From Streptomyces antibioticus (GTDB lineage Bacteria > Actinomycetota > Actinomycetes > Streptomycetales > Streptomycetaceae), in NCBI RefSeq assembly GCF_001514065.1, contig NZ_KQ948435.1:270217-334216 (forward strand): 64,000 nt of DNA, in the 5' to 3' direction. A model generated the notes under the pieces. It was not told the DNA's origin, made no database searches, and was given only the letters and a program-made list of their open reading frames with translations. The first letter of the stretch is position 1. The number at the start of each line of letters is the position of its first letter. Positions 28,070 to 42,349 of the stretch are shown here, piece by piece. The translations under genes were made by a program, and so were the position numbers.

Positions 28070-28223
28070 CGTGGTCCCTTCGTTCGTCGCCCCCGCGGAG
28101 CACGTCACTCCTGGGACGCCGCTCACCCCTCGGACGTTCAGGCTCCGTCACCCGGGGGCGAGGTCGCCCGCGCCCGCGTGATGAGGTTGACTCGTGCACC
28201 GGCCACCATCGAAGGAGCTGCAC

Positions 28224-29429
28224 GTGACGTACGACATCGCCGCCCTCCGCTCCCTGTTCCCCGCCCTCGCGGCCGGCACGGCCCACTTCGACGGCCCCGG
28301 CGGCACCCAGACACCCCGGCCCGTGATCGACGCCGTCGCCGACGCCCTGGCGCACCCCCTGTCGAACCGCGGTCACGGCGTACCGGGGGAGCGCAACGCC
28401 GAGACGATCGTCACCGAGACCCGCGCCGCCCTGGCCGACCTGCTGGGCGCGGAGGCGTCCGGGATCGTCTTCGGCCGCAGCGCCACCCAGCTCACCTACG
28501 ATTTCTCCCGCACCCTCGCCAAGACCTGGTCGCCCGGTGACGAGGTGGTCGTCACCCGGCTCGACCACGACGCGAACATCCGCCCTTGGGTACAGGCCGC
28601 CGAACGCGTCGGAGCCGTCGTGCGCTGGGCCGACTTCGACCCGGCCACGGGCGAGCTGACCGTCGACGACATCCGTGCCGTGCTCTCCGAGCGGACCCGG
28701 CTCGTCGCCGTCACCGCCGCCTCCAACCTCATCGGCACCCGCCCCGACATCCCCGCGATCTCCCGACTGGCCCACGAGGCAGGGGCGTTGGCCTACGTCG
28801 ACGGCGTCCACCACACCGCGCACGCCCTGCTCGACCTGTCACGGCTGGGCGCCGACTTCTACGTCTGCTCCCCGTACAAGTTCCTCGGCCCGCACCACGG
28901 AGTCCTCGCCGCCCGCCCGGAGTTGCTGGAGACCCTGCACCCCGACAAGCTCCTGCCGTCCACCGACGTCGTCCCGGAACGCTTCGAACTGGGCACGCTG
29001 CCCTACGAGTTCCTGGCCGGCACCCGGGCGGCCGTCGACTTCCTCGCGGGCATGGACGCCACGGCATCGGGAACGCGACGACAGCGTCTGGAGGCGTCGT
29101 TCGCGGAGCTCGAAGCCCACGAGCAGGTCCTGCGCACGCAGTTGGACAAGGGGCTGGCAGCGCTCGACGGGATCACGATCCATTCCCGGGCCGCCGACCG
29201 CACGCCCACCCTGCTGCTGACCTTCGAGGAACACGGCACGGTGGACGCCTACCGCTTCCTCGCCGACCGAGGCGTCCACGCGCCGTCCGGCTCCTTCTAC
29301 GCGATCGAGGCCTCCCGGCGGCTCGGCCTCGGCGACACCGGGGGCCTGCGCATCGGCCTCGCGCCCTACAACGACGCGGACGACGTCGACCGGCTCCTGA
29401 CGGGCCTGGCCGACTTCCTGGCGCGCTGA
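28224..29429 (+). CDS. Cysteine desulfurase-like PLP enzyme (class V aminotransferase fold)
   Basis: 401 residues from GTG 28224 with GAAGGAG upstream. Class V aminotransferase features: FDGPGGTQTPRPV near the start, FGRSATQLTYDFSR, AYVDGVHHTAHALLD and PLP lysine in CSPYKFLGPHHG. It resembles the desulfurase-like group that lacks a mobile active-site cysteine loop, so cysteine desulfurase activity is not assured. It is followed after 4 bp by the barstar-like gene, suggesting co-transcription of this gene, barstar, the mini-ORF array and the P450. Confidence 0.85.
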   Translation: MTYDIAALRSLFPALAAGTAHFDGPGGTQTPRPVIDAVADALAHPLSNRGHGVPGERNAETIVTETRAALADLLGAEASGIVFGRSATQLTYDFSRTLAKTWSPGDEVVVTRLDHDANIRPWVQAAERVGAVVRWADFDPATGELTVDDIRAVLSERTRLVAVTAASNLIGTRPDIPAISRLAHEAGALAYVDGVHHTAHALLDLSRLGADFYVCSPYKFLGPHHGVLAARPELLETLHPDKLLPSTDVVPERFELGTLPYEFLAGTRAAVDFLAGMDATASGTRRQRLEASFAELEAHEQVLRTQLDKGLAALDGITIHSRAADRTPTLLLTFEEHGTVDAYRFLADRGVHAPSGSFYAIEASRRLGLGDTGGLRIGLAPYNDADDVDRLLTGLADFLAR

Positions 29430-29433
29430 GGTC

Positions 29434-30057
29434 ATGAACGCCTGGCTCATCGAACGCCGCCCGCCGTGGGTCGTGATCGCCGGCCGTGACGACCCGTGGT
29501 CGGCGGCCGGGACCGCCGAGCTGCGGGCCCGGGGCGGAGAGGTGGTCCGCCTCGACGGACGGCAACTCCCCGACCCCGCGGCCGTGTTCACCGCCTTCGC
29601 CGACGCGCTGTCCTTCCCCGGCTGGTTCGGCCGCAACTGGGACGCGCTCGTGGACTGTCTGCGCGACCGGCACTCCTGCGGGGGCGGCCCGCGGGACACG
29701 GCCGTCCTGATCGACCACGCCGACGCGCTGCTGAACGCCGACTTCCTCGGGCTGTTCGTCTCGGTCCTGTGCCAGGCCGCCTGGCAGGCCAACCTGCGGC
29801 TGGACGCCGACGGACTGCCGCAGGACCTGCCGACCCACGCCCTGCACTTCCTTCTCCTCCTCGACGACACCCCGCCCGCCGCCTTCGCCCCGGCCGTGGC
29901 GAGCGGCATGGACGTGCGCGTGGCCCTCGACGGGGGACGTCTGACGGCGACCCTGAGCGGCGAGGACTGGCTCGTACCGCCGGACCCTCCTCGCCCTGGG
30001 GCGTCGCCTGTGACCGCCCGTGATCTCTCCGGCCCTCGCCCTGGGCGTCGCCCGTGA
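29434..30057 (+). CDS. Barstar-like protein with repeat-derived C-terminal extension
   Basis: 207 residues. The central segment EVVRLDGRQLPDPAAVFTAFADALSFPGWFGRNWDALVDCLRD is the barstar (RNase inhibitor) fold signature; GWFGRNWDAL is diagnostic. No barnase-type RNase gene is seen in the window, so its partner is elsewhere or it has another role. The final 16 residues (VTARDLSGPRPGRRP) are one unit of the downstream 44-bp tandem repeat read in frame. The preceding unit contains one extra G near 30001; without it the protein would end at 30013 (about 192 residues). Start ATG 29434 has GAGG inside the upstream stop. Confidence 0.78.
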   Translation: MNAWLIERRPPWVVIAGRDDPWSAAGTAELRARGGEVVRLDGRQLPDPAAVFTAFADALSFPGWFGRNWDALVDCLRDRHSCGGGPRDTAVLIDHADALLNADFLGLFVSVLCQAAWQANLRLDADGLPQDLPTHALHFLLLLDDTPPAAFAPAVASGMDVRVALDGGRLTATLSGEDWLVPPDPPRPGASPVTARDLSGPRPGRRP

Positions 30058-30355
30058 CCGCCCCTGCCCCCGGTACCCCGCCCGGAGTCGCTTGTGACGG
30101 CCCCTGACCTCGCCGAAGCTCGCCCGGAGCGTCGTGTATGACTGCGCCCGGCCTCCCCGAAACCCCGCCCGGAGCCTGGCCTATGACGGCCACCGGCCTC
30201 CCCGAACCCCGCATGGAGCCTGGCCTATGACGGCCACCGGCCTCCCCGAATCCCGCCTGGAGCCTGGCCTATGACGGCCACCGGCCTCCCCCAACCCCGC
30301 CCGGAGCCTCGCTCATGACCACCCCCGGTCTCCCCCAACCCCACCCGGAACTGTG
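30010..30355 (+). repeat. 44-bp tandem repeat array forming translationally coupled mini-ORFs
   Basis: Units begin at 30010, 30054, 30094, 30138, 30183, 30227, 30271 and 30315 (periods 44, 40, 44, 45, 44, 44, 44). From 30094 on, units start with (A/G)TGAC(G/C/T)GC(C/G) and carry GGAG 8 bp before the next start. A 44-bp period puts each TGA one base past the A of the next ATG, giving ATGA overlaps at 30138, 30227, 30271 and 30315. Reading frames: VTAPDLAEARPERRV (30094), a 30-residue double unit (30138, the only 45-bp step), MTATGLPESRLEPGL (30227), MTATGLPQPRPEPRS (30271) and MTTPGLPQPHPEL (30315), whose TGA overlaps the P450 start. The peptide consensus is MTATGLPEPRxEP. Confidence 0.85.
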
Positions 30356-31531
30356 ATGAGCCTTCTCGAATCGTTCCCGTTGGGTGCCGCGACCACCCTC
30401 GCCGAGCTCGCCGACAATCCCCACCCCCGGCTCGCCCTGCTCCGCGCCCACGAGCCCGTGTCCTGGCTGCCCGAGCTCGACGGCTGGCTGGTGACCCGCC
30501 GGGATCTGGCCCTGACGGTGATGAGGGACGCCAGGACCTTCACCGTCGACGACCCCCGCTTCTCCACCGCCCAGGTCGTCGGCCCGAGCATGCTGTCCCT
30601 CGACGGTCCCGAGCACGCCCGGCACCGCGACCCCTTCGCCGCCCCCTTCCGGCCGCGGCAGACCCACGACCGGTTCGCCGCGTTCGTCGAACAGGAGACC
30701 GACCGGCTCGTCACCGCCCTCGAACCCGCCGGCGCCGCCGAACTGCGCCGCTCCTTCGCCGGCCCGCTCGCGGTCGCCGTCGTCACCGAGGCGCTCGGCC
30801 TGTCCGGCGTCAGCACCGACACCGTCCTGACCTGGTACGAGGCCATCGTGGCGTCGGTCTCCGACATCACCGCCGGGCACGCCCCCAGCCCGGCCGGCAC
30901 CGCCGCCTACGCACAGCTGAGGGCCGCCGTGGACACCACCCGCGGCACGTCCTCCCTGCTCGGCGCCGCCGCCGACCGGCTGTCCCTGCCGGAGGTCGCC
31001 TCCAACGCCGCGGTCCTGATGTTCGGCGGCATCGAGACCACCGAGGCGATGATCACCAACGCCGTCCTCCACCTCCTGCGCCACCCCGAGCAACTCGCCC
31101 TCGTCCAGGCCGAGTCCGACCTCCTTGACGGGGCGATCGAGGAGTCCCTGCGTCTCGAACCCGGCGCCGCCGTCGTCGACCGCTACGCCACCCGCGACAC
31201 CGACCTGGGCCTGGCGACGATCCGGCGCGGCGACCTGGTCACCGTCTCCCTCGCCGGCGCCAACCGCGACCCGGCCGTCTTCCCCGACCCCGACCGCTTC
31301 GACGTCCGCCGCGAGAACGCCCGCCTCCAACTGGCCTTCGCCCACGGCCCCCATCACTGCATCGCCGCCCACCTGGCCCGCCTGGAGACCCGCATCGCCC
31401 TGCGGACTCTTCTGGCCCGGCTTCCGGGCCTGCGGCTCGACGCGGAGCACCCGGCGGCACCGTACGGTCTCGTCTTCCGGAAGCCGGCCGCGCTCCACGT
31501 ACGGTGGGGTCACAACGGGCAAACAGGTTAA
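30356..31531 (+). CDS. Cytochrome P450
   Basis: 391 residues. I-helix motif MFGGIETTEAMI (with acid/Thr pair), ExxR in EESLRLEP, and the heme ligand in FAHGPHHCIAAHLARLE, where Cys coordinates iron. Bacterial class I P450, so it needs a ferredoxin and reductase that are not next to it. ATG 30356 overlaps the TGA of the last mini-ORF (TGATG); a GTG at 30353 is the alternative. The substrate is unknown; the gene lies in the same run as the desulfurase-like and barstar-like genes. Confidence 0.88.
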   Translation: MSLLESFPLGAATTLAELADNPHPRLALLRAHEPVSWLPELDGWLVTRRDLALTVMRDARTFTVDDPRFSTAQVVGPSMLSLDGPEHARHRDPFAAPFRPRQTHDRFAAFVEQETDRLVTALEPAGAAELRRSFAGPLAVAVVTEALGLSGVSTDTVLTWYEAIVASVSDITAGHAPSPAGTAAYAQLRAAVDTTRGTSSLLGAAADRLSLPEVASNAAVLMFGGIETTEAMITNAVLHLLRHPEQLALVQAESDLLDGAIEESLRLEPGAAVVDRYATRDTDLGLATIRRGDLVTVSLAGANRDPAVFPDPDRFDVRRENARLQLAFAHGPHHCIAAHLARLETRIALRTLLARLPGLRLDAEHPAAPYGLVFRKPAALHVRWGHNGQTG

Positions 31532-31623
31532 ATCTCCGTTTCCGAGTGACCTGCCTCTCATGGCACCCGGAGGCCATAGCCGCGACCATGGTGTCCGTCA
31601 CCGGCAGGCCGAAGGGATCGGGA

Positions 31624-42123: not shown

Positions 42124-42349
42124 CTCGGCACTGCCGTGCTCGGCAGATCGGCCGCATCCGTCACCTTCCGCTCGGCACTGCCGCGCTCGCTGGATCGGCC
42201 GGAGCCGGCATTCCCCTCAGCACGGCCGCACCCGGCAGAATGACCACATCCGGCACCCTCGGCTCGGCACTGCCGCGCCCGGCAGAATGACCACATCCGG
42301 TCCCTGCCCGACCCGGCTCCCCAGCGGAGCGCTCTGGCAGAATCGGCCC
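42124..42349 (+). repeat. Degenerate 47-bp tandem repeats upstream of the LAL regulator
   Basis: Units start with CTCGGCACTGCCG or a variant at 42124, 42171, 42216 and 42263, with periods 47, 45 and 47, and a partial unit from 42317. Units 3 and 4 share GGCAGAATGACCACATCCGG. The last piece ends GGCAGAATCGGCCC directly at the GTG start of the regulator. The block fills the whole gap between the SDR and LAL genes. Confidence 0.8.

Follow-up and report, generated by a model that had tools for sequence, protein, structure and literature searches.

An array of coupled mini-ORFs between a barstar-family gene and a cytochrome P450 gene in Streptomyces antibioticus, best explained as a serially duplicated gene junction

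A tandem array of eight diverged units, each 40–45 bp long, was observed at positions 30010–30355 of the window (the whole 64,000-nucleotide stretch of Streptomyces antibioticus DNA that we analyzed), with a barstar-family gene on its upstream side and a cytochrome P450 gene downstream. The array is real, although the first-pass annotation of this DNA had partly misdescribed its details. That annotation offered three readings, namely a tunable translational delay, a peptide-producing array, or a run of duplicated gene junctions, and the last of these is the best supported. Our preferred explanation, to which we assign a probability of roughly 0.57, is that the array formed through serial local tandem duplication of a coupled gene junction, in a manner that kept the P450 start overlapped by a translated frame.

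The copied junction would have consisted of the 3' tail of the barstar-like gene, an embedded GGAG and an overlapping start codon. As 44 bp is 2 mod 3, each copy would form a mini-ORF whose stop overlaps the next start within RTGA. Copies would have been tolerated because this period preserves the stop/start overlap, and with a copy length of 2 mod 3 the P450 start would be overlapped by a translated frame whatever the copy number. Ribosomes that finish one mini-ORF would re-initiate, or be recruited by the GGAG of the unit, and could step from ~30094 into the P450 gene; as some ribosomes would probably be lost at each step, the P450 would be made at a lower level than the product of the gene upstream. 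Which way the duplication ran, that ribosomes re-initiate and that the P450 level is affected are all our inferences, and ribosome flow and any tuning role go a step beyond the geometry of the sequence.

Anatomy of the array and its stop/start chain

The array lies within a run of co-oriented genes that has the following features:

28194..29429, + strand: class-V aminotransferase or cysteine-desulfurase-like gene, first in the co-oriented run (Pfam Aminotran_5; TIGR01976 above cut-off)
29434..30057, + strand: barstar-family gene, its last codons running through unit 1 and its stop lying in the GTGA of unit 2 (Pfam Barstar, E 1.3e-17)
30010..30053, + strand: unit 1, 44 bp, GTG start, without GGAG, in frame with the barstar ORF
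30054..30093, + strand: unit 2, 40 bp, GTG start, without GGAG, ORF overshooting to 30107 (the chain break)
30094..30137, + strand: unit 3, 44 bp, GTG start, GGAG 6 nt upstream, 15-codon mini-ORF into ATGA 30138
30138..30182, + strand: unit 4, 45 bp, ATG start, fused in frame with unit 5 as a 30-codon mini-ORF
30183..30226, + strand: unit 5, 44 bp, ATG start, 15-codon mini-ORF into ATGA 30227
30227..30270, + strand: unit 6, 44 bp, ATG start, 15-codon mini-ORF into ATGA 30271
30271..30314, + strand: unit 7, 44 bp, ATG start, 15-codon mini-ORF into ATGA 30315
30315..30355, + strand: unit 8, 41 bp, ATG start, 13-codon mini-ORF with its TGA at 30354–30356
30356..31531, + strand: cytochrome P450 gene, alternative start GTG 30353 (Pfam p450, E 4.3e-27)

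RTGAC opens all eight units, at the first base of each, with GTG as the start in units 1–3 and ATG in units 4–8. Tandem Repeats Finder reported a period of 44 (6.3 copies, 83% matches at 30075–30349) and a period of 88 from 30037. The first-pass annotation had counted six to eight 44-bp units; eight units do bridge the two genes, but they are not uniformly 44 bp in length. It had also placed GGAG 8 bp before most ATGs. GGAG was found upstream of six of the eight unit starts, 8 nt away in five but 6 nt away in one, units 1 and 2 have none, three of the starts are GTG, and the P450 gene has GGAA instead. Units 4–7 are 82–95% alike and units 5–7 86–95%, whereas units 1–3 and 8 are 55–73% like the others, and the middle copies are therefore the recent ones. 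By eye, the unit sequence had no likeness to the P450 gene's own 5' end, a point that counts against our preferred explanation, as do the break in the chain at unit 2 and the two units that lack GGAG.

From GTG 30094 to the P450 gene, every mini-ORF stop was observed to overlap a unit start, either directly or via an in-frame fusion. The direct TGA/start overlaps lead from 30094 to 30138, from 30183 to 30227, from 30227 to 30271 and from 30271 to 30315, and the unit 4 ORF reads through unit 5 to stop at the same 30227 junction. The stop of unit 8 overlaps the P450 GTG at 30353 by four bases (GTGA) and the ATG at 30356 by one base. An own start, a ribosome-binding site and a stop overlapping the next start are all present in units 3 and 5–8, and in unit 4 through its fusion, and this combination is lacking in units 1 and 2. 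The ORF of unit 2, from 30054, stops beyond the start at 30094, which breaks the strict chain once, and therefore the link from the barstar gene to the array is incomplete. The earlier description, in which the TGA of each 15-codon ORF overlaps the next ATG, is correct from 30094 onward, but only four ORFs (30094, 30183, 30227 and 30271) have 15 codons on their own, unit 4 is fused and the last has 13 codons. The coupling geometry proposed to run unit by unit into the P450 gene was likewise right, apart from the break at unit 2, and 27 of 41 P450 relatives have a coupled mini-ORF (see below).

The longest RTGA chain in the region has six links. It starts at a further GTG within unit 1, at 30020; counted from 30094, there are five links. 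At most three links were found in 3000 dinucleotide-type shuffles of the region, versus the six observed. In a model array with unit lengths of 38–50, any length that is 2 mod 3 yielded a full or nearly full chain; an ATGA repeat of such a period chains automatically, and so the chain itself amounts to about a 1-in-3 coincidence. The length changes among units (-4, +1 and -3) gave no sign of frame selection, and our search for it in the unit lengths of the array produced no clear evidence. That TGA is kept in all units is weak evidence (0.03), and partly circular since the units were cut at RTGA.

These properties bear on the possibility that the array is a neutral minisatellite, in which slippage expanded a 44-bp ATGA-containing stretch, the chain is without effect, and ribosomes reach the P450 gene only from the site of the last unit or from its own site. 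Any 44-bp repeat with ATGA would make such a chain, and the divergence of units 1–3 and 8 and the out-of-step unit 2 also fit this explanation. We nevertheless regard it as somewhat unlikely, for reasons that come from other loci and are given below.

The peptides encoded by the units were observed to be free of constraint. Of the 24 differences that separate adjacent units, 18 are non-synonymous (pN/pS 1.1), which indicates that there is no purifying selection on the peptides, as a neutral minisatellite would also have it. A control over unit pairs gave pN/pS values of 1.16, 0.42 and 1.32 for the mini-ORF, +1 and +2 frames, respectively; these counts rest on few, non-independent differences, and we draw nothing from the 0.42. 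The peptides had been said to share MTATGLPEPRxEP, and close forms of MTATGLPxxRxEP do occur, but in three units only. The residues common to those three units are what speaks for functional peptides of this type being made from the mini-ORFs. We give that idea almost no credence, given the mostly non-synonymous differences between adjacent units, which argue against the peptide-producing array of the first-pass annotation, and given that among 392 genus-level genomes only the organism's own genome matches across the array.

Two further candidates were rejected. A structured RNA had no Rfam match up to E 1 in 29000–31600, and folding equaled that of shuffles (z 0.05). A single protein could not span the whole array in one frame, given a period that is not divisible by three.

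Distribution of the array and the leaders of P450 relatives

No other copy of the array was found. A whole-genome search with four units returned this locus only, the next match having an E of 0.01 over 25 bases, which rules out a dispersed repeat. An 801-bp query matched 66 of the 392 genus-level genomes (the own genome included) at E 1e-5 or better, mostly in its P450 part, and besides the own genome none of the 392 had a match spanning the array. Weak matches in units 1–3 in two genomes (G320 and G027; 51–61 bases, E ~5e-6) proved to be GC-rich stretches without an array, and the single 42-base match among plasmid records, in the P450 part, was unrelated. When barstar plus array was searched against 199 relatives from 55 genera, matches outside the own genome were confined to the barstar part. 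Counting the own genome, 27 of the 392 genomes had a barstar relative at E 1e-15 or better, and no array was found downstream of them at 15 loci outside the own genome. Among 109 loci fetched by P450 similarity (80 from the P450 search and 29 from the 801-bp query, some maybe from the same genome), the array match was never better than E 0.001 (23–48 bases).

Mycobacterial interspersed repetitive units (MIRUs) were reportedly described by Supply et al. in 1997. That a mobile element of the MIRU kind landed at the start codon of the P450 gene and later multiplied is very improbable. The logic of an ORF coupled at -4 is that of MIRUs, but the genome has no second copy of the unit, and the P450 and barstar relatives examined are without it.

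A different idea is that the array acts as a copy-number rheostat, where a strain-variable number of units would set the barstar-to-P450 ratio, by analogy with the fpg1 repeat. The likeness of units 5–7 would fit, as it points to recent expansion, and a precedent for a relation of repeat length to expression is given in PMC2734929. A second strain with another unit number was not found in our genome set, which holds one genome per species, and we judge a rheostat improbable.

Only one of the 109 P450 loci had a barstar homologue within the flank, that of Streptomyces sp. GKU 895 (L028). This locus also carries the aminotransferase gene and a pyruvate carboxylase gene; the aminotransferase gene alone was near in three others, and the carboxylase gene was near in S. 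justiciae (L021), which has the P450 and carboxylase genes in common but unrelated repeats upstream. In GKU 895 (L028, 2604–3200) the barstar gene has deletions of 126 and 93 bp and the array is represented by one partial unit. The P450 gene has two one-base insertions as recorded, the aminotransferase gene carries a single 34-bp insertion close to its end, and the aligned carboxylase is gap-free. The degraded look of the barstar and P450 genes, with largely intact outer neighbors, suggests a decaying locus, and this degraded appearance is a point in favor of a neutral minisatellite. The single partial unit may be a collapsed repeat of the draft assembly. In the barstar frame it reads ...DPARLPEPRRSV, with the same residues (LPEPR) as the mini-ORFs. 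Because this partial unit reads as barstar tail, the unit is likely a copy of the barstar tail, a ribosome-binding site and the next start, and local duplication is favored over insertion by a mobile process. Units drifting out of frame in relatives had been named beforehand as counting against an array of coupled ORFs; units 1, 2 and 4 of the array partly show drift of this kind, and the only syntenic relative found is without the array.

The P450 gene was found to be preceded by a short coupled frame in many relatives. We analyzed 41 P450 relatives of at least 75% amino-acid identity with distinct upstream sequence. In 27 of these, a TTAGCCT-like element is followed, after 5 or 7 nt, by a mini-ORF of 11–32 codons whose stop forms a four-base overlap with a start in the P450 frame; this mini-ORF differs from the array unit. 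Such a coupled ORF is present in one more relative (L118), where our rule chose another start. Coupling of the P450 to a short frame is therefore common in the family. The start-to-start distances in the 27 (32, 35, 47, 50, 65 and 95) are all 2 mod 3, as the overlap requires. Going by the promoter consensus, we take the TTAGCCT-like element to be a putative -10 element and the mini-ORF to be probably leaderless. In seven relatives the element leads directly into the P450 frame, and two of these (L025 and L035) look like +1 versions fused to that frame. The element is absent from six relatives, including the two nearest, L021 and L028. In another two of the six (L024 and L122) a long frame, a 17-codon mini-ORF and the P450 gene are joined by GTGA and ATGA, which is a one-unit version of the layout upstream of the P450 gene in the array locus, and L123 has the same sequence as these with only 22 open codons upstream. 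The leader peptide has no clear constraint (pN/pS 0.90, with 1.16 and 0.88 in the other frames). The S. antibioticus lineage carries the array in place of the usual leader of the family.

The first residues of the leader, often VIGFP, resemble the start of the P450 itself (VIGFPLG) in those relatives where the element drives the P450 gene directly. It looks as if the P450 start region had been duplicated.

Coupled mini-ORFs at other Streptomyces junctions

A like architecture was observed elsewhere in Streptomyces. We searched 392 Streptomyces genomes for two GGAG-ATGA sites in succession and found the pattern in 169 of them, with more than 150 matches versus, by our own count, a total of 17 in a backward control. 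We typed 144 rows, 140 of them outside the array, several being overlapping or orthologous. The start-to-start distance in these 140 rows, among the matches listed, was 2 mod 3 in 78, 0 mod 3 in 39 and 1 mod 3 in 23. Uninterrupted mini-ORFs ending in ATGA made up 73 of the 78, again among the matches listed. Sixty loci were fetched, which took in all but four of the rows with two ribosome-binding regions at least half alike. A locus was counted as a junction when a frame open for at least 50 codons lay on either side, the upstream one ending in the first ATGA and the downstream one starting at the second. Thirty-two of the 60 loci were junctions in this sense, with a distance, among the matches listed, of 2 mod 3 in 26, 1 in 3 and 0 in 3; they include orthologous junctions and do not represent 32 independent events. 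The binomial p for 2 mod 3 was 9e-9 (78/140) and 4e-8 (26/32) assuming independent rows, which they are not fully. Ten of the 32 junctions were tandem by score (period 2 mod 3 in eight and 0 in two), as were 24 of the 60 loci overall (14, 7 and 3 for 2, 0 and 1 mod 3).

Five of these loci are clear cases, in which the mini-ORF, by eye, is made of the last codons of the upstream gene and the first codons of the downstream gene, as duplication of a junction would predict:

L284: 32 bp, three mini-ORFs, between HbpS-like and SnoaL-like genes
L282: 35 bp, two mini-ORFs, between two ABC-transporter genes
L281: 47 bp, between ABC ATPase and permease genes
L288 and L291: 38 and 41 bp, seemingly one junction in two species, the L288 pair being ABC transporters

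The coupled mini-ORFs at 26 of 32 fetched junctions and in 27 of 41 P450 relatives, all 2 mod 3, are the evidence against a neutral minisatellite, as coupling as such seems to be kept. A plain scan of the own genome points the other way. Within 1.25 Mb, RTGA ends 292 frames, and 30 starts lie downstream of these within range, at a distance of 2 mod 3 in 9, 0 in 14 and 1 in 7, so that no 2 mod 3 excess was found. Where the second start was itself RTGA (n = 11), six distances were 2 mod 3 and five were 0 mod 3. GGAG-like sites at both starts together with coupling were present in only one case. A second instance of the architecture in the own genome lies before sbcC (L259 1263–1343, C14 ~101263), where duplication of the junction has left a 26-codon coupled mini-ORF with an internal start; the upstream gene is presumably sbcD, a guess from the usual gene pair.

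With its eight units, the array described here is among the longest cases that we met, together with a 17-bp array in L286 (G164). There, at 2015–2134 and in reverse orientation, the 17-bp unit, which carries GGAG and ATGA, is repeated seven times and gives six-codon coupled frames of the MTETAR type.

Several other repeats were noticed. In one genome (G350), a 19-bp unit, GAGCGGGAGGGGCCCCCAT or near, is present in 4–6 copies at three places (L275, L276 and L277), with GGAG-N8-ATGA each time and a period of 1 mod 3. A GTGA-rich 31-bp repeat in the own genome (L268 12735–12828, C3) forms a formal stop/start chain that is longer than that of the array, with very short spacings, and is probably unrelated to it. 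The window itself has a second tandem repeat at 42124–42300 (period 47, 3.8 copies), between the end of an SDR-looking gene (by eye) and a large downstream gene. It has two ATGACCACATCCGG copies 47 bp apart and no GGAG, and therefore is not a coupled array. Lastly, L214 and L215 (own genome, start of C1) have several period-61 arrays of a constant part and variable spacers, with a CRISPR-like look.

It is tempting, if rather doubtful, to extend duplication of coupled junctions to the genus as a whole. In that case junction duplication would be a recurrent source of relay mini-ORFs in Streptomyces, the copies would survive mostly when 2 mod 3, and copy number would be a heritable dial on the ratio of the flanking proteins.

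If our explanation of the array as a serially duplicated junction is true, there would be a simple mutational route by which spacers that preserve coupling are inserted between operon genes. The 2 mod 3 length rule that it predicts could be checked in any genome set. The array would also be a natural multi-step coupling chain, in which the loss per re-initiation step could be measured directly, and Streptomyces would have a P450 family whose translation seems routed through a leader mini-ORF.

Comparison with known systems

The array had been introduced as resembling no described system, which is too strong a statement, since MIRUs carry an ORF coupled at -4 (PMC12548453). In the open-licence literature we came across no account of arrays made by local junction duplication; our search there returned only the MIRU papers, the synthetic single ORF discussed below and general papers. 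Bacillus tandem repeats of constant length (PMC8161180) do not fit.

According to PMC12548453 and PMC2734929, MIRUs are short intergenic repeats, often tandem, whose ORF overlaps the following gene in a -4 nt coupling. The latter source gives a repeat size of ~40–100 bp and 41 places in M. tuberculosis H37Rv, and MIRUs are apparently mobile. The array is alike in size and place, with units of 40–45 bp between two co-oriented genes. It is also alike in -4 coupling through its RTGA overlaps, which for the P450 gene exist only via GTG 30353, as ATG 30356 is overlapped by one base. By the same accounts MIRUs are scattered genome-wide, whereas the array unit is at one locus only, and therefore we do not file the array as a MIRU; the two are set apart by the published description, and MIRUs are the closest known kind. 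The other Streptomyces arrays also differ from MIRUs as so described in being unrelated in sequence, each seemingly made from its own junction.

In the M. tuberculosis complex, rnc and fpg1 are separated by a repeat array whose length correlates with the fpg1 mRNA level (PMC2734929). In the portion of that paper available, no chain of coupled mini-ORFs is described for it, and the link to expression is at the mRNA level.

Short upstream ORFs can deliver ribosomes by coupling, according to a review (PMC12548453), and in E. coli a gene is translated more strongly behind a synthetic "nonsense" ORF, a single one that contains a ribosome-binding site (PMC13255528). The array is like these in having a mini-ORF with a ribosome-binding site by its stop, directly before the target, and a peptide that is unimportant. 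Those ribosome-delivering ORFs are described as single, whereas the array has up to eight successive units behind an upstream gene.
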